IMG/VR virus record: IMGVR_UViG_3300017731_000087
Location: 1-20,231 of that record
DNA length: 20,231 nucleotides
Direction: 5' to 3' (one strand)
DNA from: a virus
Part shown: positions 875 to 18,209 of the stretch, one piece after another
How the letters are laid out: every line of letters starts with the position of its first letter
Position numbering within the stretch: the first letter of the stretch is position 1
Position numbers and translations under genes: made by a program
The notes under the pieces: model-generated
The model's database searches: none
What the model saw: the letters and a program-made list of their open reading frames with translations, nothing else
What the model was told of the DNA's origin: nothing

Positions 875-3800
875 ATGGAAACTCCAGTCCCATACACAGG
901 AACATTCGCACAAGCTAGAGAAAACGAAGACCTTTTATTTAAAGAGGGTCTTACTAATAGCGCACGTGCAATATTAGAAATACCTGAAGACGAAGACTTT
1001 ACTTTTGAAAATGCAGAACAAGCAATTCAAGAGGGTCGTATTGATGCGTCTATTCTAGAAGAAACTAGAAAAGAAGCTAGAGAATTTATTGCTGAAGCTT
1101 ATGAGTTTCCTTTAGATAAATATCAAAAAGCTATAGATGAAGTTGAAAGAGATAGGCAGGTTATATTACCTGGTCCAGACGGTCAAGATAAAAGAACTTT
1201 AGCTGAGTTTAATGAAGAGAGAGCAGGAGTTGGGGCAGGGATTGCAGCTAGAGGCATTGAAATAATAAAAAATGTTCCTACAGATATAGCAGAAATATCT
1301 GGCGATGTGGTGCAAGATGCTATTGATATAGGAAGACTTATTTATAATTTGCCAGGTTTAGTAACTGGCGATAAAGAATCCAGGCGTGTGGTAGGAGAGT
1401 ATTTCCTTAAAAATTTTTCTGAAATGAACTCTATATCTCCAGATACTGTAAATATGATTTTAAAAAAATCAGGTGCATCTGAAGAAGATGCTAGTCAAAT
1501 ACAAGACTATCTTGTAACATATCGAAAAGAAAATCCTACATTAGGTAAACAAATAACAGACCCTGTAAAAGAAACAGTAGGTAAAGCAGTAGATGTTTTA
1601 GAAGAAAATGCTAGAAGCAGTGAGCTTGGTAATAAAATAGTTGATTCAATTTACAGAACAGCCGACCCTCAACTTACACTTACTGAAGAAATTTTAGCTG
1701 ATATATTTATGATTGGTGCTAATGTCAAAGCATTAAGAAGATGGACAACTGGTGATAAAAGATACGATGCAGCAGCTTTGCGAATGGCTGCTGCTTCTGC
1801 TACTGGACAAAAGAAAAGAAAAATACAACAAGAAATTGATAGACGCACAAAATTAAAACCAGATGACCCTCAGTATATTGATAAAAAAGAATTGCCTGCT
1901 CGTGTAGGTAAAGAACCTATACTTAAACCAGATGCTTTAAAAATTAAAAGTGTACCACGGACTTATGCAGAAACAACTGCTGCATATATGGCAATTGATT
2001 CTGGTGAAGAATCACTAATGCCTATGCTTTTATTAGATGATGAAGAAGTTAGAATTAGAGATGATGTAGATACAGTTGGTTTTAAACAAATTTTAGCTGG
2101 CATTAATGCTTTAGATAACCACACTAATGGCGCAGTATCTGAAACTCTTAACAAGCTTACTGTAAATCCTGATGATAGTGCAGCAACTAGAAGATTAAAA
2201 CAATTGGTTGACATTGGTTTAGCTGATGGTATCTTGGTTGGAACAATAGGATTGGGTCAATTGGGTCAACGGTTTGGTAAGGGAACTATTTCAACATCTA
2301 AAAATGCTCTTAGAATTGCAGCAGATATGAAAGATGCTGGAACTAGAACATTAAATTTATCTAAAAAAGTAAAAGAAGGAATTAGAAAGCCACCCGAAAC
2401 TTCAGAAGGTTCTATTGTTAGTGGGAAAACAGAAGTTATTGAGGACGCACCTGGAGAGTTTAAACAACAGGGTGTTGTTAGAAGATATCTTGGTAATATA
2501 AATACTAAGGCAGGAAGATTGTTTAGGTCTGATGCAGGTCTGCCAGAAGAAATGCACGGTGAGTTTTTAAAATCAAAGCGTTGGTTGGCGGCAACAGAAA
2601 AAAGAACGAAGCGTTTAGCCAATGAAGTTGAAAGTGTAATTAAAGATTTTAATTTAGATAGGACTGTTGTTAATGAAGCATTGCATGGCAATATAGCAGC
2701 TATTAGAACGCTTGCTCCAAAAGCTGCGGAGCGTCTTGCAAGAATTGCTGGAGAGTTTGCTAAAAATGAATCATTAATTAAAAAGGCTTTACGTATTCCA
2801 CAAAATCAAAAACTATCAGCAGCCGTTGGACCTGATGGTGTTTACATGACACGCTCATTTAGATTTACTCAAGACCCTCAGTGGTCTAAACGTATTAGAA
2901 ATTATGTTGAAACTGGTAATGTTCAAAATCCTTTGGGAAGAACTTGGTCACGTTTGTCTACAGATTTAGGTGCAGCAAATAAAGCTTATAATGATAAGGT
3001 TATTGAGGTTGTTGAAAACGGAAAAGAATACCTTAGAAAAACTATGGGCGTTACTGATGAAGCTGAACTAAATGCAATTATTAAAAGCATAGTTGATGGA
3101 GATAATGGTAAAGTTTATACTGGTTTTTTAGATTTGCTAGAGGGTAAAGTTCCGCAAGGAGTAACAAAAGGTTTACGTAAAAGAAAAGAATTAGATAAAC
3201 CAATCCTAGAACTCTTAGGAGAAATTAAAGACCCTGTTCTAAATACCTTGCAAACATTAAGAACACAAAATAATATTATTGCAAAAGTAAGGTATATGGA
3301 TAAGCTTGCTAAGTATGCCTCTGAAAATGTAGGCAAAGAAATTAAAGTGTCTGGTATTTTGCCAATTGGCAGGCAGACAACTACGTTTACAAAAACTGCC
3401 TCTAAGAAAGGTAAGATTAGTAAAGACGTTGGAGATTTAACAGGCACGTTTGACAATTATATAGATGAACAGTTGGGTTCATTGGGTGCAAATACTACTC
3501 TTCGTAAATTAACGCCTCAAGATGCACAGCGACTTGCAGAAATAACTAATAAAAGAAAACAAAATCCTGCATCTTTAACACCAGACGAAAAGAAATTTTT
3601 AAATGAGGTTAGCGGAGAAAGAAAACTAGAACTTGGTAGATATGCAACTAGTCCTTTATTTCAAGATATTCTTACTCGTGGTATAGATGCTTTTAATGCT
3701 GATAGATTTTATAAAGCTTTACCCTTTGGTTCTTTTGTTAGAAATGCTGTAGGTTATGGTCAGAATGTTCAAACTATCCTTGACCATACTGCTTATATGT

Positions 3801-5995
3801 TACAAGTAAGTGGTGCAGCGTTTATGTTGGCTGCTAATGGACACTTATTTAACCCTGCTAGAACAGCAAAAAACTTAATGGTAACAACAAAAAAATATTC
3901 TGACCGTTTAGTTGGCGACCCGACTAAAGAAGACCTAGAGTTATTTGAGTTTCTAATTGGTGAGGGTGGTGTGTTGGATACAAACCTTGTAACTGGTACG
4001 TTGCAAGATAATGTTAAAACATTGGATGATGTGCTTGCAGAAATGTCTGCTGACCAATTTGATAAAGGTTTTTATAATAGGCTAATTAAAACTCCCTTTA
4101 GAAAACTAGGTGATGTTTATGGTGCAACAGATAATGCAGCAAAGTTAACAGCATTCTTTGGTGAATTTGATGACCTTGCTAAAATTTATCCAGACGCAGA
4201 CCAAAAACAATTATGGCGTTTGGCAGCAGACAGAGTTAAAAACACTGCACCTAACTACGGCACAGCCGCACCTATTGCACGGTTTATAGGTCGTACTCCT
4301 GTTGTTGGTACGTATGTATTATTCCCAGCAGAAGTTTTACGTACTAGTTACAATATAATTAAATATGGCGTACATGATTTTTCAAAAGGTGTCTATACTG
4401 GTAACAGGGCTTTGGCAATGCACGGCATGAAAAGATTAGCTGGACTTGCCGCAGTTACCGCAGGAATGAATGAGCTTATAAAAGATAACAATATTAAAAA
4501 TGGTTGGACAGAAAACAATACAAGACTAATTAAATCTATTGACCCTGACTATGCTTATAGTTCTAGAAAGCTTGCAATAACTCCTTTATATTATGACGAT
4601 GAAGGTAATATTGTTACACGATATGGAGAGTATTCTATGATAGATGCCTATTCATATTTATTTGACCCTGTAAATGAAATGGTTGCTCGTGCTATGTCTA
4701 CATCTCCTGTAGACCCTGAAACAGGTGAATATAGAGAACCGTTTACTGAAACAGAACAAAATGAATTTTTTAATAAGGTCGCAAGAAATGTACTTTCACC
4801 ATACTATAGTGGTAAATCTATGGCAACGGCTGGATTATCTTTATTAGCAAATGTAGATGAACGTGGTAATCCTATTATACAACCGCTTACACAAGAAGCG
4901 TTTAGAGAAAATCCATTTGCTACAGACACACTACGTAGAATAGGTGAAGATGTATTTCCAGTATTAGAAAGGACATTAAAACCTGGTGCGCTTACTAACT
5001 ATAATAGAGAAGTAGATGCTGTGTTATCTGAGACATTTAGAAATGACGAAAATCTAACAGACAATCCTGACAGTGTGTTTAGCAAAAGACCGCCAGAAGG
5101 ATATAAGATTGGCTTGACTCGTGCAGGATATCCAAACCGTGCTGTAGATGCTAAAGTATTTAATAGAACAGGATTTAAAATAGTTACAAATAATGTGTCA
5201 CGTGGTGTAGGCAGAGAGTTATATGATGGTATACAACTTATATCATCTAATAGAAAGGCTCCTGTAAATGCTATTCGTGAAATTGAAAATAAAGATATTG
5301 CTAAATTTAAATCAAGTTATAATCAATATATTTCAGAAGGTTTAGATTCAAAAGAAGCTGTAGCTTTTGCAGCACAAGATGCTTTCTCAGGATTTTATTC
5401 TGCTGTAGATAGAAAAGCAAAAGATAATTTGGAGGGATATGTTAAAGTACGTGATAGGGCGGCTAGATTTTTTGGAGCATCTGTTCTTAATAAAGAGGGG
5501 GACTTTGTACAACCGACACCAGAAGATTTATATAGAGCAATGTCGTCTTTTAATGAAGTCCTTGGTCCTAAATATAGGGTTAATGAGAACGCCTTAAAAA
5601 CAATTATTTCTGGTCAAGTTTTGCCTTTCTTTGGCAATCAAGATAGAGAAGACGTTATAATGGCAACTCTTGAAAAATTAAATAATAGTGGTTTTGATAT
5701 TAATGACCCTATATCAACAAATCTTGTTGAAAATTTCTCAAAATATTTAGTAGCTAGGCAAACTCCTAATAGAGATTTAATAAATGAGTTAGTTGAAGAT
5801 AGAGTTACATACTTACAATTTAGGGGAGAGACACCAGAGGATGCTCTTAAAATTGCCACAGAAGAGATACAACATTTGGATTTACCAGAACTGCAGGGGT
5901 TAACTGATGTTCTTATAGGAACAGAAGACGACCCATTTGTAGGTTTTGAAGAGCCAATTGAAGTACCACTATCTGATTTAAGGAATATACAATAA
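875..5995 (+). CDS. Giant internal virion (DNA-ejection-type) protein, 1,706 aa
   Basis: This 1,706-residue protein fills a quarter of the window and lies directly before the lysis genes, where podoviruses encode their largest internal core or ejection proteins (T7 gp16 is the functional reference, though no clear sequence match is claimed). The start ATG at 875 is preceded by GGAGA at 866-870. The sequence is mostly charged and helix-forming. Short hydrophobic or amphipathic segments lie near residue 449 (ADGILVGTIGLGQLG), near 979 (AAFMLAANGH), near 1136-1160 (RTPVVGTYVLFPAEVL) and near 1185-1200 (RLAGLAAVTAG). These could insert in a membrane during DNA ejection. I see no convincing lysozyme, transglycosylase or peptidase motif at its ends. 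Codons are AT-rich, with AGA the dominant arginine codon. It could also be a tape-measure or polyvalent protein; function is inferred from size, position and composition. Confidence 0.75.
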   Translation: METPVPYTGTFAQARENEDLLFKEGLTNSARAILEIPEDEDFTFENAEQAIQEGRIDASILEETRKEAREFIAEAYEFPLDKYQKAIDEVERDRQVILPGPDGQDKRTLAEFNEERAGVGAGIAARGIEIIKNVPTDIAEISGDVVQDAIDIGRLIYNLPGLVTGDKESRRVVGEYFLKNFSEMNSISPDTVNMILKKSGASEEDASQIQDYLVTYRKENPTLGKQITDPVKETVGKAVDVLEENARSSELGNKIVDSIYRTADPQLTLTEEILADIFMIGANVKALRRWTTGDKRYDAAALRMAAASATGQKKRKIQQEIDRRTKLKPDDPQYIDKKELPARVGKEPILKPDALKIKSVPRTYAETTAAYMAIDSGEESLMPMLLLDDEEVRIRDDVDTVGFKQILAGINALDNHTNGAVSETLNKLTVNPDDSAATRRLKQLVDIGLADGILVGTIGLGQLGQRFGKGTISTSKNALRIAADMKDAGTRTLNLSKKVKEGIRKPPETSEGSIVSGKTEVIEDAPGEFKQQGVVRRYLGNINTKAGRLFRSDAGLPEEMHGEFLKSKRWLAATEKRTKRLANEVESVIKDFNLDRTVVNEALHGNIAAIRTLAPKAAERLARIAGEFAKNESLIKKALRIPQNQKLSAAVGPDGVYMTRSFRFTQDPQWSKRIRNYVETGNVQNPLGRTWSRLSTDLGAANKAYNDKVIEVVENGKEYLRKTMGVTDEAELNAIIKSIVDGDNGKVYTGFLDLLEGKVPQGVTKGLRKRKELDKPILELLGEIKDPVLNTLQTLRTQNNIIAKVRYMDKLAKYASENVGKEIKVSGILPIGRQTTTFTKTASKKGKISKDVGDLTGTFDNYIDEQLGSLGANTTLRKLTPQDAQRLAEITNKRKQNPASLTPDEKKFLNEVSGERKLELGRYATSPLFQDILTRGIDAFNADRFYKALPFGSFVRNAVGYGQNVQTILDHTAYMLQVSGAAFMLAANGHLFNPARTAKNLMVTTKKYSDRLVGDPTKEDLELFEFLIGEGGVLDTNLVTGTLQDNVKTLDDVLAEMSADQFDKGFYNRLIKTPFRKLGDVYGATDNAAKLTAFFGEFDDLAKIYPDADQKQLWRLAADRVKNTAPNYGTAAPIARFIGRTPVVGTYVLFPAEVLRTSYNIIKYGVHDFSKGVYTGNRALAMHGMKRLAGLAAVTAGMNELIKDNNIKNGWTENNTRLIKSIDPDYAYSSRKLAITPLYYDDEGNIVTRYGEYSMIDAYSYLFDPVNEMVARAMSTSPVDPETGEYREPFTETEQNEFFNKVARNVLSPYYSGKSMATAGLSLLANVDERGNPIIQPLTQEAFRENPFATDTLRRIGEDVFPVLERTLKPGALTNYNREVDAVLSETFRNDENLTDNPDSVFSKRPPEGYKIGLTRAGYPNRAVDAKVFNRTGFKIVTNNVSRGVGRELYDGIQLISSNRKAPVNAIREIENKDIAKFKSSYNQYISEGLDSKEAVAFAAQDAFSGFYSAVDRKAKDNLEGYVKVRDRAARFFGASVLNKEGDFVQPTPEDLYRAMSSFNEVLGPKYRVNENALKTIISGQVLPFFGNQDREDVIMATLEKLNNSGFDINDPISTNLVENFSKYLVARQTPNRDLINELVEDRVTYLQFRGETPEDALKIATEEIQHLDLPELQGLTDVLIGTEDDPFVGFEEPIEVPLSDLRNIQ

Positions 5996-6849: not shown

Positions 6850-7317
6850 ATGGAACCTATATCAACTACGCTGGCAGGCATCGCCCTAGTTCAGAAGTCT
6901 GTGGAGTTTATCAAGTCTAATATCAGTACAGTTAATGATATTAAAGACATTGCTAGTGCTGTTGATGGCATGTTTTCTGGTGAGCAGCAGATACAACAGA
7001 AAAGATATGGTAATAAATCTATTATAGGACAAACAAAAGACGCTGCCTCTACTGTTATTGATGCTAAACTAGCTCAAGAACAAATGTATGAAATGAAAAA
7101 ACTAATTAACTATAGGTTTGGTCATGGTACATGGGAGCAGATAGTAGCTGAAAGAGCAAAGCGTATACGAGAAGAGAAGGAAGCTATAGCCGAACAAAAA
7201 CGTATAGCACGAAAAAAACAAAAGGATTTTGAAGATATGTTGTTTGTTGGCGGCTCTATCTTTGTTGGTGTAGCTCTTTTCCTTGGTGTAGCTATTGGGA
7301 TATTTACTTTAGGTTAA
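6850..7317 (+). CDS. Small coiled-coil protein with C-terminal membrane anchor, unknown function
   Basis: I do not recognise a characterised family, although the opening MEPISTTLAGIALVQKSV resembles small proteins I associate with marine phages. The 155-residue protein starts with a mildly hydrophobic helix (about 3-18). A basic/acidic helical region at about 115-138 (RAKRIREEKEAIAEQKR) looks like a coiled coil. It ends in one strong transmembrane segment (about 141-164 of the reading, FVGGSIFVGVALFLGVAIG). A GAGAGAG ribosome-binding site precedes ATG 6850. It is the last gene of the late arm, directly after endolysin and holin, so a lysis accessory or a membrane-associated virion part are the natural guesses. 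A classical inner spanin has its membrane segment at the N-terminus, so the topology here is reversed. Its stop overlaps the convergent GDP-mannose dehydratase gene by 9 bases. Confidence 0.72.
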   Translation: MEPISTTLAGIALVQKSVEFIKSNISTVNDIKDIASAVDGMFSGEQQIQQKRYGNKSIIGQTKDAASTVIDAKLAQEQMYEMKKLINYRFGHGTWEQIVAERAKRIREEKEAIAEQKRIARKKQKDFEDMLFVGGSIFVGVALFLGVAIGIFTLG

Positions 7318-8334
7318 AGCAGTTTCCATCATTTCATCAATCATAGACTCAAAGGTGTACTTAGGTTCCCAGCCTAGTACATCTTTTGCTTTTTGTGGAT
7401 TACCTAACAGTAACTCTACTTCTGCAGGGCGATAGAAGTCTGGATTAATTCTAACAACTGTGTTGTCGTATTCATCCATACCAACTTCATTCAAGCCTGT
7501 ATCACCTTCCCATTTGATTTTCATATCTACTGCAGCAAAGCACCTCTCAACAAGCTCACGCACAGAATGTAGCTCACCTGTAGCCAGCACATAGTCATCA
7601 CCTTCTGGCTGTTGCATCATAAGATACATACCTTCGACATAATCTTTAGCATGTCCCCAGTCTCGTTTAGCATCTAGGTTTCCTAGCTCAATGTGTGACT
7701 GCTTTCCCTTTGCTATATTAGCTACGCCTTGTACAATTTTTTGTGTGACAAACTCAGCACCACGCCAAGGTGATTCGTGATTGAATAGGATGCCATTAGA
7801 TGCGTGTATGTTATATGCCTCACGATAATTTTTTACAGTCCAGAAGGCAAACTGCTTGGCTACCCCGTATGGGCTACGTGGATAGAAGGGTGTAGCCTCT
7901 GATTGGGGTGTTTCTAAAACCTTTCCATATAGCTCTGAGGTGGACGCTTGATAAAATTTGGTATGGTCGGATAGGCCAAGTGTACGGATGCACTCTAAGA
8001 GCTTTAAAACCCCTATAGCGTCCACATTAGCAGTGTATTCTGGCATATCAAAAGACACACGCACATGAGACTGTGCCGCAAGGTTGTATACTTCGTCAAA
8101 TAAGTTGGTATCAAACAGGTGCATCAGGCTACCCGTGTCGGTCAAATCACCGTAGTGTAGTTTAAAGTTAGGGTTATCTATCAGGTGTGCAATACGTTTG
8201 GATGGCTCTGAGGACACACGCCGTTGTAGGCCGTGTACAATATAACCTTTTTCAAGAAGTAGTTCTGCTAGATATCCACCGTCTTGTCCTGTGACACCAG
8301 TAACAAGGGTTGTTTTTTCTCCAAGATTATTCAT
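7309..8334 (-). CDS. gmd: GDP-mannose 4,6-dehydratase
   Basis: The enzyme converts GDP-D-mannose to GDP-4-keto-6-deoxy-D-mannose using bound NADP(H), the entry step to GDP-fucose, GDP-rhamnose, GDP-perosamine and related sugars. The 341 residues cover a full-length short-chain dehydrogenase/reductase of this family. Visible are the nucleotide-binding TGVTGQDGGYLAE (12-24), R-R-V-S-S near 38-42, STSELYG with T132 and E134, and the catalytic Y156-x(3)-K160 in SPYGVAK. NHESPWRG (185-192) has Trp where the family normally reads ESPRRG. I chose ATG 8334, which has AAGAGG 9 bases upstream, rather than 8394, which would add 20 residues in front of the Rossmann fold. It overlaps the terminase gene upstream by 8 bases and is the last gene of the glycan cassette. 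No GDP-fucose synthase or reductase partner is in this window. Confidence 0.95.
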   Translation of the reverse strand: MNNLGEKTTLVTGVTGQDGGYLAELLLEKGYIVHGLQRRVSSEPSKRIAHLIDNPNFKLHYGDLTDTGSLMHLFDTNLFDEVYNLAAQSHVRVSFDMPEYTANVDAIGVLKLLECIRTLGLSDHTKFYQASTSELYGKVLETPQSEATPFYPRSPYGVAKQFAFWTVKNYREAYNIHASNGILFNHESPWRGAEFVTQKIVQGVANIAKGKQSHIELGNLDAKRDWGHAKDYVEGMYLMMQQPEGDDYVLATGELHSVRELVERCFAAVDMKIKWEGDTGLNEVGMDEYDNTVVRINPDFYRPAEVELLLGNPQKAKDVLGWEPKYTFESMIDEMMETALT

Positions 8335-8779
8335 CTGATACATCCTCTTCTTCTTCTTCAAAGTCTTCAGGCCAAGTAGACATAAACAGTTCATACATTT
8401 TTTCTTTGCCTATAATTTTCATGGCGGCACATATCTTTCCCTCAAGACCTGCTACGTCCTGTGGTCCATCGTCTTCTGCATTGTTGCCACGTACACGAGA
8501 TAATAACTCAAGAGCCTTGAGTGCAGTTTGACCATTGCCATTTGCTTTGGCTTGCTCGTACTGTTTCTCAAGCTCTGAGACAACATCTACATCTGTGCTG
8601 TATTCGTCTTCAAGTTCTTCAAGCCTGCGCTGGATGGCAGGTTCTTGTAGCAATCTGTATCCCTGATTGTGTGCAGACTTTTCACTATAGCCAGCAGAGA
8701 TAGCAGACTGAGTAGCATTCTTGTTGATAAGATATGCTTGACAAAACTTTTCTTGACGCTCTTTAAGCTGCCCTGTCAT
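8327..8779 (-). CDS. Terminase small subunit (Terminase_2-like)
   Basis: This is probably the DNA-recognition subunit of the packaging motor. The 150-residue protein has the N-terminal helix-turn-helix pattern of the family: LKERQEKFCQAYL, then NATQSAISAGYSEKSA, then a RLLQEPAIQRRLEEL block (residues about 5-62). A coiled-coil or oligomerisation segment follows (about 65-105) and the tail is extremely acidic (FEEEEEDVSDE). The chosen ATG at 8779 has GAGG about 10 bases upstream; the longer frame to 8860 would add 27 unlikely residues. The start overlaps the previous stop by 17 bases, so it is co-translated with the sugar-modification genes. A large terminase subunit is not in this window. The position inside a glycan cassette is unusual, and an alternative role as another phage DNA-binding protein is possible. 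Confidence 0.8.
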   Translation of the reverse strand: MTGQLKERQEKFCQAYLINKNATQSAISAGYSEKSAHNQGYRLLQEPAIQRRLEELEDEYSTDVDVVSELEKQYEQAKANGNGQTALKALELLSRVRGNNAEDDGPQDVAGLEGKICAAMKIIGKEKMYELFMSTWPEDFEEEEEDVSDE

Positions 8780-11045
8780 CCATAAATTCCTCAAAAGTTT
8801 GAAACTCTTGATTGTAATACGACTGCTCAAAGACTTGATAAGCAAGAGTATTATTACCATAGAAGTCTATGTTTAGTGCTAGGTCTTTTCTTTCAAGCAT
8901 CTTCTCAAGGTCTTGGGCAAGGGCTAGTAACTCGCCTGTTGTCCAGAACTTAAACCCACCAGTTTCTACATGCAAGTATTTTGGTTGTCCTGCTTCGTCT
9001 TTTGCTTCTTTATCTACAGCATCTTCTGGTACGCTACAATCAAATCCAAACAGGTGTAGGTTGCGATAGCCTAATGTTTCAAGCAGACCGATGGCTCGTG
9101 TGGCAGAGGCAGTACCGCCAGAGATAAATACTGTGCCTGTAGGAATAGGAAGCTTGGTATTGATTACAAACTTATCTTCCCTGTCTGCGTCACGTACAGC
9201 ATCTGTAAAGGCATGAAAGCCTTTTACATTATCTGTCTTAGACATAATGTAGTCTACTGCAGAGATGTCTGTCATGCTGGCAATTACAAATAGTGTGCTT
9301 GGGTCAACCTCTTTAAATAGGTCTTTGCGTTTTACTCCGTGCGTGCTTACACCGTCTACAGGCCGTGGGTCTAGAATGACACAGGCTGTAGGTTTAATAC
9401 CTGCTTTAAGAAGACGGGGATATGAATGCTTGACACACCATACTTCGGCATCATATTTCTTTTGAACTTTCTTAATTTCTTTCATGTTAAGTTGACCGCC
9501 TGATACAATGATGGCGTGCTTGTTATTTGTTTTGTATTGCTTGACCCAATCAAAGTCATTAATCTTTTCTACGTTGTAGATAATGTTGTTATGGATGTCG
9601 TCCTGTGGCATTGAGTCTTTTGGTTTTACAATGATGGGAATACGCATGAACTCTTGTGGTAAATCTTTCTCTTTGGGAGAGATAACTACGCCAAGATGAA
9701 CCTTGCCGCCAAAGGCAGTTGGGTCATCTGATGGAAGAATATATTTATTAGTGTCCTTAATTTTTTCAAAGGTTCGTATGATTCCGTTGTAGTCAGGGTT
9801 GTCCAAAAACTCTTTGTCTTCATGTGAATAGTAGTCATCGAATACAATAACGGGTACGTCTTTCAAGAAAGTGTAATCGCTTTTAACTGTATCATATGAA
9901 TGACCGCCATCAATATAAGCAAGGTCTACGTCATCGAATCTCTTAGATTTCATGGTGTCCTTGGTGTCACCGCAATTTAGATTGTAGGTAAACTTCTTAT
10001 TGTTCTTTGCCATCTTGACAGCAAACTCTGCAAGTCTACGGGACACAGCCTCAGTAGGATTGTGCGCCTTGATGTTTAGTTCTACCTTATCTGTCTCCTC
10101 TGTGGCCTCTTCAAATAAATCAAAGCCACGATAGTGTACTGTATCTACATTTTCAAAAGCAGCAAGTGCCATCTCAATGGCTCGACCACCATTCCATGTG
10201 CCTGTCTCTACAATAGTAAAGGTGTTACGGTCTTCAGAGTAGAAGCGAACCAAATCTGCAAGCTGTTTGTAACGCTTTGGACCTACAATATCAGGAGATA
10301 CTTCCTGTTTCTTTTGCCACTTACGACTACCTTTGTTATGTATAAAGTGTTCATTTAACATACAGTTTTCAAACATCTCTAGGCCACGCACTCCCTCTGA
10401 CAAGTTGCGTATCTTTGAACCATGTGCTTCATATATCTTGAGCAGGCGGGTGTACACAAATGAATCAGTCCACTCACGATAGCTGAATACTTCGTTAGTG
10501 TCATATGCGCCACGTATATCTACGATGTGAGAGCAGGCGTTATGATATGCCATGTTCCATGCAGTAAATCCTGTTTCGCTGTAGTCAATGTCAATGCGAC
10601 CAAGGTGAACCATGTCTACCTCGTCAAGCATAATCTTAGCTGCGTCCTCTGCGGTAAATCTTTTCTTTGTAACAGTGTCGGCATCAAGCCATGCCAACCA
10701 TCCCTTGTATTCTTCTTCAATTAACTCAAAGGCAAGGTCTGAGTAGGCATATACTTTATTACAAAAACGTACTGCGTCCAGCCTGTAATTGTATGGTGCT
10801 TCCGCAAAGCGTCCGTTTTTATCTGCATTACGCTTAATAAAATCGTTGCGTGCTTCTACATCTTCTATGTGACGGTAGGTAATGAAGCTTGCCTGCGGCA
10901 GTCCGTCTGTTTCTTTTTTGTAACCCTCAAGGTACACGTATAGTTTAAAGTCGGTCGGTTTCCATTTGCTTATGACAGACTCCAGCATAGGCAGTCCATA
11001 TTCTTCTTCGTGTTTTTTAGGAAAGCTTGTTACAAAAGTATACAT
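8763..11045 (-). CDS. Three-domain glycosyltransferase - methyltransferase - DUF115 (MptE/Maf-like) fusion
   Basis: This 760-residue protein joins three recognisable parts. Residues about 1-240 look like a nucleotide-sugar glycosyltransferase: it opens MYTFVTSFPKKHEEEYG and carries the metal-binding D121-A-D123 in WLAWLDADT. Residues about 275-455 look like a class I S-adenosylmethionine methyltransferase of the Methyltransf_24 kind: IVETGTWNGG (278-287) is the cofactor loop, and YIDGGHSYD (377-385) and VFDDYY (401-406) are the typical later motifs. Residues about 505-735 match the DUF115 fold shared by archaeal MptE and the flagellin-modifying Maf proteins: AIIVSGGQLN (511-520), VILDPRP (556-562), ISGGTASATRAIGLL (641-655) and LHLFGFDCS (663-671). 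The natural guess is synthesis and transfer of a methylated sugar onto protein or lipopolysaccharide. The gene follows its upstream neighbour after a 2-base gap. Domain identity is well supported; substrate is unknown. Confidence 0.85.
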   Translation of the reverse strand: MYTFVTSFPKKHEEEYGLPMLESVISKWKPTDFKLYVYLEGYKKETDGLPQASFITYRHIEDVEARNDFIKRNADKNGRFAEAPYNYRLDAVRFCNKVYAYSDLAFELIEEEYKGWLAWLDADTVTKKRFTAEDAAKIMLDEVDMVHLGRIDIDYSETGFTAWNMAYHNACSHIVDIRGAYDTNEVFSYREWTDSFVYTRLLKIYEAHGSKIRNLSEGVRGLEMFENCMLNEHFIHNKGSRKWQKKQEVSPDIVGPKRYKQLADLVRFYSEDRNTFTIVETGTWNGGRAIEMALAAFENVDTVHYRGFDLFEEATEETDKVELNIKAHNPTEAVSRRLAEFAVKMAKNNKKFTYNLNCGDTKDTMKSKRFDDVDLAYIDGGHSYDTVKSDYTFLKDVPVIVFDDYYSHEDKEFLDNPDYNGIIRTFEKIKDTNKYILPSDDPTAFGGKVHLGVVISPKEKDLPQEFMRIPIIVKPKDSMPQDDIHNNIIYNVEKINDFDWVKQYKTNNKHAIIVSGGQLNMKEIKKVQKKYDAEVWCVKHSYPRLLKAGIKPTACVILDPRPVDGVSTHGVKRKDLFKEVDPSTLFVIASMTDISAVDYIMSKTDNVKGFHAFTDAVRDADREDKFVINTKLPIPTGTVFISGGTASATRAIGLLETLGYRNLHLFGFDCSVPEDAVDKEAKDEAGQPKYLHVETGGFKFWTTGELLALAQDLEKMLERKDLALNIDFYGNNTLAYQVFEQSYYNQEFQTFEEFMDDRAA

Positions 11046-11047
11046 AA

Positions 11048-11722
11048 TTATTCCTCTGAGTATAGGTTGTTAAATATTTGGTTAGTATCAAGAGTATAAT
11101 CTAGGTCGCTCTTGCTGTAATGTATTTGTGCTGATGGCTTGAAGTCTGGCGCACCCTCACCTGTAACAAACCAGGCTGGATGCGTGACCCTAACCCTGTT
11201 GTTAGGTAGGGCAACAATGTTTCCTGTCCACTCACCTGCGTCCAGCAGGCAAAGCACGTGGCTTTGTTTGTGTTGTGCAGAGTCATCAGCTATCTCGCTA
11301 TCTGTGTAGTCCACAGTGAATAGATACTTGGCGGGGTACATCTCCCCATCAATCTTTACAAGCCAAGGACAGGGGGTTGCTCTGTCGATTGTATACACAG
11401 AGTGTGTTCGTGATGCACAATCCCACGGCTGTGCTTGGTGCGTTGCCATTTGTTGAGGCCAATCTTCTACAGGGATGTCTCCCATCAAGCCTGTGATAGG
11501 CATCCTTGCCCACATTGCACCGCCATGCACCGTATCTTCTTCTTCGCCTTCGGCAGATATGCCTGTAAATATAATCTGAAAACTAAGGCATCTGTTGGGC
11601 ATTGTCGTAACACCGACAGCCATGCCATGTAGAAACTCTCCGTGATATGCTTCGTGATTGTGCGTGAAGTCACGGCGTACCCAGCATTTAAAGTGGGGTA
11701 TGTTGCTATGCAAGAACGCCAC
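11048..11722 (-). CDS. Conserved marine-phage-type protein of unknown function, GTG start
   Basis: I do not recognise a domain. The 224-residue protein begins AFLHSNIPHFKCWVRR and is rich in His, Trp and aromatic residues, with several beta-like stretches (LSFQIIFTG, YLFTVDYTD, HVLCLLDAGEWTG). No membrane segment, signal peptide or nucleotide-binding loop is seen. The overall impression is a compact beta-rich domain. The start codon is GTG at 11722, sharing one base with the TAG stop of the glycosyltransferase upstream, with GGAGA 8 bases before it. Tight coupling to two glycosyltransferase genes suggests a role with the glycan product or with the virion part that carries it. This is inference from position only. 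Confidence 0.75.
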   Translation of the reverse strand: MAFLHSNIPHFKCWVRRDFTHNHEAYHGEFLHGMAVGVTTMPNRCLSFQIIFTGISAEGEEEDTVHGGAMWARMPITGLMGDIPVEDWPQQMATHQAQPWDCASRTHSVYTIDRATPCPWLVKIDGEMYPAKYLFTVDYTDSEIADDSAQHKQSHVLCLLDAGEWTGNIVALPNNRVRVTHPAWFVTGEGAPDFKPSAQIHYSKSDLDYTLDTNQIFNNLYSEE

Positions 11723-12486
11723 TACATATTCTCCAGTATAAGCTGAGTAGTTATTTCTTTTTCAGTGGCAAGCCATTCTTCTGTGTACGCTTCGTCAATA
11801 GGTCGCTTCGGTTTCCAGTCTTTAAACCACGGACCACCTGTCGTAAAGTGAGCATTCTTCGCCTCAACATGTTCGCTTGAGTGTCCGTCAAGCCAATTCC
11901 ATTCTTCATGTATGTCTCCAATCTCGTCATCGTCAAGCCACCCAAAAGAGTGCAGCCAAGAACCTGTTTGCAGGTTGACCGCATCAACTGTTAGCTTTTT
12001 GTTGCTTGGGTGGGAGCAGTTGAACAGCATAAAGCTAGACCAGTTTTTTCTACGATAGCGGGTTTGTGCAACTCCGTCCATCTTTGCTCCTTCGGGTGGC
12101 TCATATTTGTGCTTGATACACTGAACAGCAAAGTCTGTTCGCTTACCGTAAACGCCAAAGATACCTTCGATGTCACCACGCACAAACATGTCAGCATCCA
12201 TAAACAATGCCAGACCCTGATACTGGTTCAATGCAGGAACCAAGAAACGGGTAAATGTAAAGTCTGTACTAAATGGTTTGTTGTCGAAGACATCATATCG
12301 TTGTTTCGGGTCGTGTTCAAACACACGTGAAGCCCTGCGGTACAAGCCAATGCGCCGAAGCTCTGGCTCAAGCAGGGGGATGATGTCGTATTTTGTATTG
12401 TATTTACGGATTGAGTGTTCCAGAACTTCGTAAGCTCTGCTGTCACGGTCATCATATCCAATATAAATAACTGGTCTTCTTTTCAT
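11722..12486 (-). CDS. Glycosyltransferase with DxD motif
   Basis: The 254-residue protein is probably a retaining GT8-like or related cytoplasmic sugar transferase. After the start it reads RRPVIYIGYDDRDSRAYEV, a typical beta-strand/loop opening. LALFMDADMFVRGDI (about 92-106) contains the DxD metal site. GGPWF (about 218-222), near the end, is a common acceptor-side motif. I chose ATG 12486, with GGAGC five bases upstream; the frame runs back to 12549, but that extension would read through the leader hairpin and has no ribosome-binding site. It is the first gene after the promoter at 12562-12590 and so heads the glycan cassette. Donor and acceptor cannot be read from sequence. Confidence 0.85.
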   Translation of the reverse strand: MKRRPVIYIGYDDRDSRAYEVLEHSIRKYNTKYDIIPLLEPELRRIGLYRRASRVFEHDPKQRYDVFDNKPFSTDFTFTRFLVPALNQYQGLALFMDADMFVRGDIEGIFGVYGKRTDFAVQCIKHKYEPPEGAKMDGVAQTRYRRKNWSSFMLFNCSHPSNKKLTVDAVNLQTGSWLHSFGWLDDDEIGDIHEEWNWLDGHSSEHVEAKNAHFTTGGPWFKDWKPKRPIDEAYTEEWLATEKEITTQLILENM

Positions 12487-12505
12487 AACTGCTCCAATAT
12501 AAGGT

Positions 12506-12552
12506 GCGGTGGACATGAGAGAGAGAAAGGACTGAAGAACTCTGCCCACCGC
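12506..12552 (-). other. 5' leader hairpin of the glycan cassette
   Basis: GCGGTGG at 12506-12512 is the exact reverse complement of CCACCGC at 12546-12552, giving a seven-base-pair, GC-rich stem that can be extended with four A/T pairs across a small bulge. In the - strand transcript the stem starts within a few bases of the predicted start site (about 12555), encloses a 33-base loop in which AGAG and CTCT can pair, and ends about 19 bases before GTG-free leader sequence containing the GGAGC ribosome-binding site. No U-tract follows, so it does not look like a terminator. A 5' stabilising or regulatory stem-loop is the likely role. Confidence 0.55.
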
Positions 12553-13712: not shown

Positions 13713-15637
13713 CAGGCAGCAGTTAGGTCAACGACCTCACAGGAATCACCAGAGCAAGCCAGTGTTTGCGTACCTGCGGTGTTGTCTTCCTTCTCGTAAT
13801 CAGAAAGCCTTGACCAGTCGATTGACTTGGGCATAGCACTAAGTGCTTCAGTATATACTGCCTTGTCACAGTCCTGATAAGGTGCTTGTGCATAGGTGTG
13901 GTCACTGTGGGGCAGGAAGGATACACCAGAGCAGATGTCAAAGTTATCGTATACCCATGCGCCAACCTTGAGCCACTCCTCGTCACGAACTGTGATGTTC
14001 ACTGATGGCTTGTGTTCGCACCACTCAAGGGCATACATCTTCCACAACTCAAGTTGCTCAATCGCAGTCATGTCGTTGCGTGTAATCGCACCGTCAGGTG
14101 AAGCCACTGGAAAGCTAAACACTGTCGTGCTTTCAGGCTTCATAACGCAAGGCTCTGCAGGAATGCCTACGTCCTGCATGAACTGCGTCAACGGGTCTTT
14201 GTTATCACCTCGTACAGTTCTAATATAATGCGTGCTATGACGAGCGTGAATGCCAGAGGCACTATCAACAAGCTGCGAAACAGTACCTGAAGGCTTGACA
14301 CAAGTGATGGCCGCAGATGCACTAATTCCAAGTTGCTGTGCAACCTCGTTGTTTGTCTGTACAGCAACGTGGCGCAACTTATTAAGTATTTTTGCAGTCG
14401 GTTTGTTTGTGATTTCATTGTCCATAATACCTGTCAGGCTCACACCCAACAGCCTTTCCTCTTCCGTGTTACGTTTCCATACAGGCCGCAGATACGGCAT
14501 GTGTGTATATGTGGATTGAATCGTACCCAAAATTGTAGCAAGCTTTACTTTGCGTGCTAAAGTTTTCTCTGTGTCGGTTGGGCGAACCACAACCTCTGTC
14601 AGATTACAGAACTGATAAGGACGAAGTATAATTTCACTGCACGGGTTTGTCCCCCACTCTCTACCAGTTTCACGGCGACCATTGCGCTCAACGTGTTTGT
14701 CTGCTGCGTCACGGCTGAAGATGCCACGCTCACCAGACTTAGACTCGACCAGTGCTGTCCACTCACGCATGAATGTTTCCATGTCAGGCTTCTCAGTGTA
14801 GGCAACAGAGTTGTTAGCCAACGCACGTTGACCCTCATTCTCCCACCACTGCCCCGACTTGGCATGACGCATACGGTCATCGGATAGATTGGACAGGCTA
14901 ATCATTGCACTGCGGCGTACACCGCCGACAACTACAACCTCGCCAATCTTACACATGATGTCGTGACACTCAACGCTGTTGAGCTTGCGACCAGTTGCGC
15001 CTTTGAACTTACCTACAACAAAGTTGAACAGGTCGTTAAGCGGCTCTGGTCCAGAGGCACGCCCACCAAATGTCTTGAGTCGTGCGCCTGCAGGTCTAAT
15101 CTTCGACAAGTCCCACTTGGGGATGTCACCTACATAGAGCAGAGAGATAAGCTTACGCAGACTCTTTGCCCAGCCTTCCTTGCTATCCTGTACCACAATA
15201 ATATCTTCTACCTCTGCGAGGTCTTCGGGTACTTGCGGTAGCTTCTGTATTGCCTGACGCTCGACTGAAAAGCCTACGCCTGTACCGCATAGAAGAATAA
15301 ACATAGCCTCGTCAAAGGCACGGGGGTGGTCAACAGGCAGGTAGCTACAGTTATACACACATGTGTTGTCATGGTCAGCCGCTTGGCCTGCTGTCATCAA
15401 GGCACGCATAGAAGGCATTACCTCTAGGTTGAGGATTGCTTCCTCGATTTCATTAATTGTTTTGGTGTCGATGTCTGCGGGACGCACGATGTTGTCTATG
15501 AATCTGCCTACTGTTTCAGCCCATGTCTCTCTTCGGTTCTCTTCCTCAATCCATCTAGCGTATCTAGATGTAGCAATAAATGTTTGGTAATCGGTTGGTA
15601 GGTGGTTAGTCGTAGTCATATTCCTTGTCATCGGCAT
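13712..15637 (-). CDS. nrdJ: Adenosylcobalamin-dependent (class II) ribonucleotide reductase
   Basis: The 641-residue enzyme reduces ribonucleotides to deoxyribonucleotides using a radical from coenzyme B12, so the host must supply or salvage cobalamin. It resembles the monomeric Lactobacillus-type enzyme. NTCVYNCSY (91-99) gives the first redox cysteine (C97 by my reading). NPCSEI (331-336) has the radical cysteine C333 and E335. C344, eleven residues on, is the second redox cysteine, as in the Lactobacillus enzyme. KPSGT (448-452) is the phosphate loop. The C-terminal C628-SGDS-C633 pair is the shuttle that glutaredoxin or thioredoxin reduces. GAGGAG lies just upstream of ATG 15637; in-frame ATGs at 15631 and 15619 are alternatives. 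The start overlaps thyX by 32 bases. No separate small subunit is present, as expected for class II. Confidence 0.96.
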   Translation of the reverse strand: MPMTRNMTTTNHLPTDYQTFIATSRYARWIEEENRRETWAETVGRFIDNIVRPADIDTKTINEIEEAILNLEVMPSMRALMTAGQAADHDNTCVYNCSYLPVDHPRAFDEAMFILLCGTGVGFSVERQAIQKLPQVPEDLAEVEDIIVVQDSKEGWAKSLRKLISLLYVGDIPKWDLSKIRPAGARLKTFGGRASGPEPLNDLFNFVVGKFKGATGRKLNSVECHDIMCKIGEVVVVGGVRRSAMISLSNLSDDRMRHAKSGQWWENEGQRALANNSVAYTEKPDMETFMREWTALVESKSGERGIFSRDAADKHVERNGRRETGREWGTNPCSEIILRPYQFCNLTEVVVRPTDTEKTLARKVKLATILGTIQSTYTHMPYLRPVWKRNTEEERLLGVSLTGIMDNEITNKPTAKILNKLRHVAVQTNNEVAQQLGISASAAITCVKPSGTVSQLVDSASGIHARHSTHYIRTVRGDNKDPLTQFMQDVGIPAEPCVMKPESTTVFSFPVASPDGAITRNDMTAIEQLELWKMYALEWCEHKPSVNITVRDEEWLKVGAWVYDNFDICSGVSFLPHSDHTYAQAPYQDCDKAVYTEALSAMPKSIDWSRLSDYEKEDNTAGTQTLACSGDSCEVVDLTAA

Positions 15638-16875: not shown

Positions 16876-17263
16876 TTGCTTTGTCAAGCCATTCTTGCGG
16901 AATGCCCTCATTTAATTTGCAGAACTGATAGCCATACTTGTTACACCAGTCTGCGTAGGTCATCTTCCCGCCCTTGTATAGCTTGCGATATGGATTGTCA
17001 AACACAAAGCGAATGTCTATGTCTGGGTACTGGCTCTTAATAAAGAGGTGTTTCTTCCTGTCCTCTGCCATGAACCGCCCCTTCACTTCAAGCACAACGC
17101 CATTGGGTAAGAAGAAGTCGGGTGTATACTTCTTATCCTCACGCCACTCGTAGGGTAGCGTATCTTTCTCGTACTCGAAGGCTATCTTTAATTTGTGAAG
17201 CTGTTGTGCCGCCTCGTATTCTGAATTGGATTTGTATTCGTGTTTATATTTTTTTCTTTTCAT
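16865..17263 (-). CDS. T7-type endonuclease I (Holliday junction resolvase)
   Basis: The 132-residue protein should cut branched DNA and help degrade host DNA and resolve replication intermediates before packaging. It matches the T7 gp3 family throughout. E15 lies in the N-terminal helix, D49 in YTPDFFLPNG and E59-V-K61-G-R form the metal site, with the same 10- and 2-residue spacing as T7. DRKKHLFIKSQYP (68-80) and DIRFVFDNP follow, then YKGGKMTYADWC. Length is close to the T7 protein (149 aa). ATG 17263 overlaps the upstream nuclease stop as ATGA and has GGAG just upstream. Catalytic residues are all present, so it should be active. Confidence 0.94.
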   Translation of the reverse strand: MKRKKYKHEYKSNSEYEAAQQLHKLKIAFEYEKDTLPYEWREDKKYTPDFFLPNGVVLEVKGRFMAEDRKKHLFIKSQYPDIDIRFVFDNPYRKLYKGGKMTYADWCNKYGYQFCKLNEGIPQEWLDKANVK

Positions 17264-18117
17264 ATCTCCAGTTCTTCGACATTCGGTGTCTTCGCTACTT
17301 GCGTCATGTACCTCACGCCATTAGAATATTTGAATGCACGAAGACCAGCACCACCATTGGCATCAGCCCAGCATTTCTTCTTGTATGGACAGAATACACA
17401 GCCAATCGCCAGCTTGCGGTTGCCTGACTCTCCATCCTTTGCATCATTGTAGCAACGAGCAGGGGCGGTTTCACTTTGAACCATGCCCTTGAGGTGGCGC
17501 ACACGGGCAGGAGCATCAATCATCTCAAGCTCATGCACACGGGTCACTGCAAGCTCACCACTGTTCTTATCAATAGCAAGGAATGCTGCCTCATTGCGGT
17601 TGTTCTTTGTTGCGTATGCACTAATTTGTGCGATGTACCCAAACGGGTCATCGTCTGACAGCCTGTTCTCTTTGAACTTCTTGAATCCAAATGCAGAGGC
17701 AGACTTGATATCTGTAAGCACACCATCAATCACGCAGTCCTGATGTCCAAGCACACCCTCTACCTCTACGGTGTCCTGCGCCTCTTCGACTGTATGCCCA
17801 GACACTTTGGTCAGGCAAATCAGGAGAGCCTCAAGAACATGACCCATCAGGAACTTAATACGGGTCTGTCCATTCAGAGGCTCTCCGTCTTCACCCTGTA
17901 CTCCGTACCAGATTTGACGGTCTGGCTTTCCGATTTGAGAAAGTCGTAGGTTAGATGCACCTGTACGCTCTCCCTCACGAAGCACAGTCTCAGTAGCCTC
18001 TCGCACTAGGCTACCAACTTCGTCCAGTGCTTCTTGCACTGAAGGGTTAGACACATCAACACCTTTTTCTAGGGTCGAGTAAATGTCCTGTACGAGTGTG
18101 TCGAGTGTCTTAGTCAT
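17260..18117 (-). CDS. PD-(D/E)XK exonuclease, Cas4/AddB-like, with a C-terminal cysteine cluster
   Basis: The 285-residue protein is a probable DNA exonuclease of the kind phages use for recombination or host DNA breakdown. The nuclease core shows a G-H125-x-D127 pair, the motif D131-G-V-L-T-D136-I-K138-S-A, and Y161-I-A-Q164-I as the helical QxxxY-like element. Near the end, C222, C240-V-F-C243 and C249 could ligate an iron-sulfur cluster, as in Cas4 and AddB, although all four lie after the core here. ATG 18117 with AAAGGA six bases upstream is the start; the frame extends to 18162 only by reading through the tRNA gene. There are no CRISPR repeats or Cas1/Cas2, so a CRISPR role is not supported. 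Confidence 0.86.
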   Translation of the reverse strand: MTKTLDTLVQDIYSTLEKGVDVSNPSVQEALDEVGSLVREATETVLREGERTGASNLRLSQIGKPDRQIWYGVQGEDGEPLNGQTRIKFLMGHVLEALLICLTKVSGHTVEEAQDTVEVEGVLGHQDCVIDGVLTDIKSASAFGFKKFKENRLSDDDPFGYIAQISAYATKNNRNEAAFLAIDKNSGELAVTRVHELEMIDAPARVRHLKGMVQSETAPARCYNDAKDGESGNRKLAIGCVFCPYKKKCWADANGGAGLRAFKYSNGVRYMTQVAKTPNVEELEI

Positions 18118-18132
18118 GGCTATCCTTTCGGT

Positions 18133-18209
18133 TGGCGAACACGGCAGGACTTGAACCTGCAACCTGCAGATTAGAAGTCTGCTGCTCTATCCAGTTGAGC
18201 TACGTGTCC
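18133..18209 (-). tRNA. tRNA-Arg (anticodon UCU), CCA encoded
   Basis: The - strand folds as a complete 77-base tRNA. The acceptor stem is GGACACG with CGTGTTC (one G-U pair). The D-arm is GCTC/GAGC with GG and A20, an arginine identity base. The anticodon arm is GCAGA-CTTCTAA-TCTGC, with anticodon TCT after T33. The five-base variable loop is AGGTT and the T-arm is GCAGG-TTCAAGT-CCTGC. G73 and a genomic CCA end at 18133. It reads AGA codons. It lies within the replication transcript, its 5' 23 bases overlapping the end of the membrane-protein gene and its 3' end 15 bases before the nuclease start. Confidence 0.97.

Follow-up and report, generated by a model that had tools for sequence, protein, structure and literature searches.

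What would a phage do with a single protein that joins a glycosyltransferase, a methyltransferase and a DUF115 domain? The question is raised by IMG/VR virus record IMGVR_UViG_3300017731_000087, of which we analysed positions 1 to 20,231 (the window, all 20,231 nucleotides of it), and in which one minus-strand gene, hereafter the fusion, encodes a glycosyltransferase (GT), a methyltransferase (MT) and a DUF115 domain in that order (Table 1). We found that the conserved unit is larger than the fusion itself: a cassette of a GT8-like glycosyltransferase, the GT and MT-DUF115 occurs fused in one lineage and divided among separate genes in another. This phage cassette is widespread and uncharacterised, the fusion being present in many phages of aquatic origin.

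A single chain with three predicted folds

A first-pass annotation of the window had described one 760-residue chain carrying a DxD glycosyltransferase, a class I methyltransferase with an intact cofactor loop and DGGHS motif, and a DUF115 domain, and our results agree with it on all of these points, as well as on frame, coordinates and strand. The fusion is a single uninterrupted frame that starts with ATG, with AGAGGAA just before it. Structure prediction followed by a fold search for each third, much as had been proposed, gave confident GT-A, class I methyltransferase and DUF115 folds with conserved site residues, and the same domain order recurs in 145 distinct full-length proteins of related phages. 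An AlphaFold2 model of the whole chain, built with 29 aligned relatives, has a mean predicted local distance difference test score (pLDDT) of 81.9 and a predicted template modelling score (pTM) of 0.44, which gives confidence in the fold of each domain but not in how the domains are arranged relative to one another. Against Pfam, MptE-like and Methyltransf_24 exceed their cut-offs in the fusion protein and nothing does so in residues 1–237.

Domain 1, modelled alone as residues 1–240, reaches a pLDDT of 91.1 and a pTM of 0.90. Its best fold match is the bacterial GT6 enzyme 4ayl (Z 14.8, root-mean-square deviation (rmsd) 3.4, 185 residues aligned), followed by the alpha-1,3-galactosyltransferase 1g8o (Z 14.3), the PBCV-1 capsid glycosyltransferase 2p73 (Z 13.7, rmsd 3.2) and glycogenin (13.3), and the scores of these GT-A matches lie close together. 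With this confident predicted fold, domain 1 is probably a retaining-type GT-A glycosyltransferase. It matched no Pfam family profile at E ≤ 1, except for a CotE stretch at 0.22, and a profile of its alignment (A7) matched none of the sequences of solved structures at E ≤ 10. The DxD motif is D121-A-D123, and both aspartates, together with E191, W192, D194, H208 and G239, are identical in all 145 distinct proteins. Near the C-terminal end of the domain, HNKGSRK at 236–242 fits HxxGxxK, which we take to be the C-terminal motif of GT8 enzymes of the LgtC type.

Domain 2 matches Methyltransf_24 at residues 279–405 (35.5 bits, cut-off 26.3), and residues 249–459 superpose on MycF 4xvz with Z 15.8 and rmsd 2.9 over 166 aligned residues. 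The sugar O-methyltransferases SpnH and CalS11 and COMT-type and tRNA enzymes all score within about one Z of MycF, so the fold of domain 2 alone cannot name the substrate. The cofactor stretch reads E280-T-G282-T-W284, and DGGHS starts at 379; E280, G282, W284 and D309 are identical in 145/145 proteins. The window has D379, D403 and D404, the presumed metal site, which we equate through a rough alignment with what we take to be the metal-site aspartates of MycF; all three, together with H382, are found in 119/145 proteins. Domain 2 thus resembles the metal-dependent TylF/MycF sugar O-methyltransferases in fold and in a weak profile match to MycF (E 0.009), but it falls under the TylF cut-off (19.9 vs 23 bits) and is fused to GT and DUF115 domains.

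Domain 3 matches PF01973 (MptE-like) at residues 487–674 (51 bits, cut-off 34.6), and the C-terminal third is indeed predicted to fold as DUF115, with residues 474–730 superposing on Methanocaldococcus jannaschii HPPK 8sd5 at Z 15.1 and rmsd 3.2 over 194 aligned residues. At 19 of 26 tabulated DUF115 positions, all 145 distinct proteins are identical. The archaeal MptE/HPPK proteins share this fold and Pfam family with domain 3 but are single-domain enzymes of a pterin pathway. All three domains of the fusion look to be under purifying selection: the ratio of nonsynonymous to synonymous substitution rates was 0.03–0.10 in 23 of 24 comparisons (three domains, eight relatives), the remaining one (DUF115 of L020) yielding no value.

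Distribution of the fusion

Scans of viral contigs with growing queries found relatives encoded by 18, 141, at least 542 and at least 528 stretches. Each scan returned the best 80 loci at most, so that distant forms are under-sampled among the loci described here. Counting repeat fetches, 221 loci match at least one of the domains, and 207 of them encode all three in one frame; the 145 distinct proteins of at least 730 amino acids fall into 63 clusters at 90% identity and extend down to 40% identity to the window fusion. An assembly join was ruled out, with the frame open at 741–777 amino acids in 80 of 80 loci tested and the 145 distinct proteins at hand.

The first-pass annotation did not know this domain order as a described system. 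We found no paper on a GT-MT-DUF115 phage system in the open-licence PubMed Central (PMC) literature, also when searching for DUF115 or MptE-like with phage, and the passages of PMC9038755 and PMC10783043 returned by term look-ups held nothing relevant; the order itself was already deposited in a relative of similar length, A0A6J7X5Q0 (714 amino acids, 30% identity over 755 columns).

Outside viral contigs, a single-sequence scan of genome contigs found no fusion relative, and an alignment scan of them found one relative, L146, on a contig titled as a Myxococcales metagenome-assembled genome. A host origin of L146 was rejected: the viral contig L147 matches it at 100%, and terL, portal and major-head genes lie on the L146 contig. 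When 188 genomes of its titled phylum were searched with MT-DUF115, only the genome containing that contig gave a match. By tblastn, the whole fusion protein matched two of 50,697 phage records, both over domain 1 only; MT-DUF115 of L146 had no match among the phage records, and the DUF115 domain had none among plasmids. The pelagiphage HTVC103P, the top match of the window polymerase, has no feature annotated as a glycosyltransferase in bases 1–50,000 of 54,103. It does carry genes annotated as a toxin-activating lysine-acyltransferase (9458–9907) and an S-adenosylmethionine decarboxylase (15085–15462; our locus L230).

Conserved neighbours and a split form

We compared gene neighbourhoods in a main set of 115 contigs, obtained after removing 24 repeat fetches by contig name; the contig of L018, L021 and L090, on which the gene runs off the end, was left out, and near-identical contigs (e.g. 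L002–L007) are still among the 115, so the counts are not independent. The GT8-like gene lies upstream of the fusion in all 106 contigs with room for it, directly adjacent in 93 and with about 660 bases intervening in the other 13, an insert that in the window is the phrog_3704 gene. Downstream, all 105 contigs with room have the small terminase subunit gene terS. In a second set, which shares some contigs with the first, the GT8-like gene is upstream in 63/63 and terS downstream in 58/63. The five loci lacking terS comprise two that end soon after the fusion (L205, L165) and three in other settings (L156, L202, L198); in L156 and L198, the two that were scanned, a large protein of unassigned function precedes the fusion and a holin follows it. 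Of the 69 contigs that extend more than 2 kb downstream, 28 have the GDP-mannose 4,6-dehydratase gene gmd, and in each of these 28 the fusion is at least 61% identical to that of the window; gmd recurs near the fusion in L156 (by Pfam) and L202 (by similarity). Near the fusion of L198, a gene at 7505–8287 (minus strand) encodes cytidylyltransferase-like and mannose-6-phosphate isomerase C-terminal (cupin) domains, a function of the sugar-nucleotide type.

In nine further contigs (L146, identical to L147, and L148–L155), MT-DUF115 is a gene of its own. The order in L146 is terL, then a GT-like gene that scores under its Pfam cut-off, genes for an FkbM methyltransferase, another methyltransferase (MT169) and a radical SAM protein, then GT8, GT, MT-DUF115 and portal; a major head protein is encoded further along. 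By similarity to L146, the GT gene lies upstream in 7/9 of the split contigs, terL is present in 7/9 and portal in 8/9, the misses of terL or portal falling at contig ends. The radical SAM protein within the split sugar cassette of L146 (5988–6932, plus strand) has a SPASM domain. A quick tree of 47 MT-DUF115 sequences placed eight split forms on one side of a branch with a Shimodaira–Hasegawa-like approximate likelihood ratio test (SH-aLRT) support of 100, so that a single event, either a fusion or a fission, explains the data.

A clade with altered GT and MT sites

One clade, comprising 21 of the 145 distinct proteins, with 5 rows that share a single branch of the tree (SH-aLRT 100), has changes in MT residues D379 and D404 together with GT residues R150, E157, H236 and K242, and has lost the HxxGxxK motif. 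Among residues invariant in the other 124 proteins, those changed in the clade number 14/36 in the GT, 6/36 in the MT (a count that leaves out D379 and D404, which vary elsewhere) and 2/48 in DUF115. In 23 of 23 clade loci the gene immediately after the fusion encodes a stand-alone, MT169-type methyltransferase, vs 0 of 152 other fused loci (those with at least 700 bases downstream, repeat fetches included); in one clade member this methyltransferase scores 27.7 against Methyltransf_23 (cut-off 27). The joint change fits GT and MT acting as two steps of one job, with DUF115 as the part that cannot be lost. Between the fused and split pair and this clade, in which two of three active sites are changed, the role of each domain becomes testable.

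Proposed function and alternatives

We propose, at slightly better than even confidence, that the fusion is a soluble enzyme with which the phage assembles an O-methylated glycan and attaches it, the acceptor being more likely a virion protein than the host. From the three predicted folds, the conserved sites, the fixed partner genes and the occurrence of fused and split forms, all of which are observed, we infer what chemistry each domain performs, in which order, on which sugar and acceptor, and where in the cell, as follows. The phage would make or take a sugar nucleotide, which where gmd is present, as in the clade of the window, would probably be a GDP-6-deoxyhexose made with the GDP-mannose 4,6-dehydratase that the phage encodes. 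Sugars would be transferred by the GT8-like partner and by the GT-A domain, the middle domain would O-methylate a sugar hydroxyl using S-adenosylmethionine and a metal, and the DUF115 domain, whose fold is shared with Maf, would make or guide the bond to the acceptor, in this proposal a phage structural protein. The first-pass annotation suggested that the fusion could let a phage build and attach a methylated sugar in one step. A sugar context is supported, with the GT8-like gene throughout and gmd in one clade; the single step does not follow, since the split form means that the cassette does not need the fusion.

Several observations weigh against this proposal. No close relative has a known activity, gmd is not nearby in 41 of the 69 contigs long enough to show it, and two of the nine split contigs (L153 and L155, which are alike) have no GT gene. 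The DUF115 loop, which we take to be the phosphate-loop motif of the family (GPSL or GxGPSL), reads SGGQL in the window, with no GxGPS match. The clade with altered sites counts as one evolutionary event, not 23. Five distinct proteins have an altered MT metal site without the GT changes (H236 and K242 are intact) and with no extra methyltransferase gene; three have N382/N403/N404, one has N379 and one, L011, has N403/G404. In the window, finally, the fusion gene shares its strand with the replication genes and not with the virion genes, which makes late expression no more than a possibility. The L011 protein (3644–5923, plus strand) is 93% identical to the window fusion and, apart from D403N and D404G in its MT site, seemingly intact.

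The first-pass annotation had left two acceptors side by side, the host surface and the phage's own virion. That the same enzymes modify a host surface glycan (lipopolysaccharide, capsule or another envelope sugar), blocking rival phages or re-adsorption of progeny, is a serious alternative, though one we rate clearly below that of a virion protein. In the window, the fusion comes after replication and nucleotide genes of the same strand, as would be expected of a pre-lysis gene. Phage O-antigen-modifying transferases are well known but usually need membrane partners, and in a hydropathy analysis that covered the fusion and six window genes the fusion had no hydrophobic segment (highest 19-residue Kyte–Doolittle mean 1.41 across the 145 proteins), which predicts a soluble protein. 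The split form, moreover, lies between terL and portal. The repeated association with terminase, portal or holin genes, seen in more than one setting, makes us lean towards a virion protein as acceptor without settling the choice.

A further reading starts from the Maf flagellin glycosyltransferases, in which PF01973 is preceded by a Rossmann-type domain, an order that MT-DUF115 repeats. The top structure match overall is Maf 5mu5 (residues 250–745, Z 18.5, 348 aligned), to be read domain by domain given its rmsd of 14.2. A passage in PMC11339370 describes the Maf N-domain as a degenerated Rossmann domain of unclear function, weakly similar to methyltransferase motifs. Phage MT-DUF115 would then be the complete Maf architecture and the Maf N-domain the decayed remnant of a working O-methyltransferase; phages would have a cytoplasmic Maf-like system that attaches an O-methylated glycan to their own virion protein, and one phage clade would repeat the decay, a stand-alone methyltransferase replacing the fused one. 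We regard this as doubtful. In a profile comparison of phage MT-DUF115 with four Maf-like proteins only DUF115 aligned (probability 73.8, E 2.9e-5), and since the MT did not align with the Maf N-domain, the idea of a Maf ancestor draws on domain order, one fold match and one sentence in one paper. A probe with Maf_flag10_N (PF20157) gave partial matches in 6 of 188 genomes (two of these six loci, L227 and L228, looked on visual inspection like different proteins and were excluded from alignment A9) and no match in the window fusion protein at E ≤ 1. Unlike Maf, the fusion has an intact-looking methyltransferase and an extra N-terminal GT, and the Maf C-terminal helical bundle is missing, about 30 residues with short helices only following the HPPK match. 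Judged by predicted domain content, then, the fusion is not a Maf, but it may offer a lead on the nature of the Maf N-terminal domain.

It is improbable that DUF115 acts as an MptE-like pyrophosphokinase, or that the substrate of the fusion is a small molecule or nucleic acid, which would make the sugar reading wrong or partial: among single-domain folds M. jannaschii HPPK comes closest, and thyX, a folate-related gene, is present in the window clade, but the GT8-like partner is fixed, a GT-A domain and a sugar-methyltransferase-like middle domain accompany DUF115, and those fused rows that were compared have an altered GPSL loop. Least probable of all is a DUF115 that is now a non-catalytic, acceptor-binding scaffold for the GT and MT domains, as the loop kept as SGGPSL in split L146 and altered in the fused rows might suggest, since DUF115 is the least changed domain both across the 145 proteins and in the clade with altered sites.

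Comparison with known virus glycan systems

One of the closest parallels to the glycan-building enzyme that we propose is A064R of the chlorovirus PBCV-1, which PMC9614988 describes as one viral polypeptide with three transferase domains, GT and methyltransferase among them, that builds and methylates the tip of the capsid glycan, and whose virus also has its own GMD. A064R differs from the fusion in its GT-GT-MT order, in being without DUF115 and in belonging to a eukaryotic virus, with no shared sequence established. By analogy, the fusion may work like A064R without being a member of the A064R-like enzymes, and would be a bacterial-virus counterpart of this capsid-glycan fusion. In cluster O mycobacteriophages, three GT genes lie next to an O-methyltransferase gene, and modification of capsid and tail-tube proteins is reported (PMC11600133, citing Freeman et al. 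2023). These are separate genes, and the description given there does not mention DUF115.

In the Pelagibacter phage Mosig EXVC030M, the neighbouring genes Mosig_00189 and Mosig_00188 match domain 1 (29%) and the GT8-like gene (39%), respectively; here the genes are separate, and the Mosig region compared has no MT-DUF115 match. Phage MW202713 likewise has the GT as a separate gene near other sugar genes, about four genes from terL.

Gene content of the window

The minus strand of the window carries DNA polymerase, thyX, ribonucleotide reductase, the GT8-like gene, the phrog_3704 gene, the fusion, terS and gmd, with several genes without assignment between them (Table 1).

Table 1. Positions in the window of the fusion gene, its domains and its neighbours, with the evidence for each assignment.
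Feature	Position	Strand	Evidence
Fusion gene GT-MT-DUF115, 760 amino acids	8763..11045	-	Open frame, Pfam, AlphaFold2, 145 distinct full-length relatives
Domain 1, residues 1–240, predicted GT-A glycosyltransferase, DxD 121–123, HxKGxxK 236–242	10326..11045	-	Model and fold matches
Domain 2, residues 250–460, predicted class I O-methyltransferase	9666..10298	-	Methyltransf_24 over cut-off, MycF 4xvz fold
Domain 3, residues 474–730, DUF115/MptE-like	8856..9626	-	PF01973 over cut-off; HPPK 8sd5 and Maf 5mu5 folds
GT8-like glycosyltransferase gene	11722..12549	-	Glyco_transf_8 21.6 bits, under cut-off 24.3; phrog_28018 E 1e-48 (PHROG without assigned function)
phrog_3704 gene (PHROG name 'ferredoxin'), between GT8-like gene and fusion	11048..11722	-	PHROG E 2e-26
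Small terminase subunit gene terS	8327..8860	-	PF03592 63.9 bits, cut-off 26.1
GDP-mannose 4,6-dehydratase gene gmd	7309..8394	-	TIGR01472 493.2 bits, cut-off 415

The plus strand encodes a 1706-amino-acid virion-type protein and an M15 peptidase. The former (875–5995) has a partial 24% match to a Pseudoalteromonas phage gene annotated as an ADP-ribosyltransferase. A tRNA-Arg gene (anticodon TCT) at 18133–18209 on the minus strand overlaps the start of an unassigned 300-amino-acid frame at 17260–18162.

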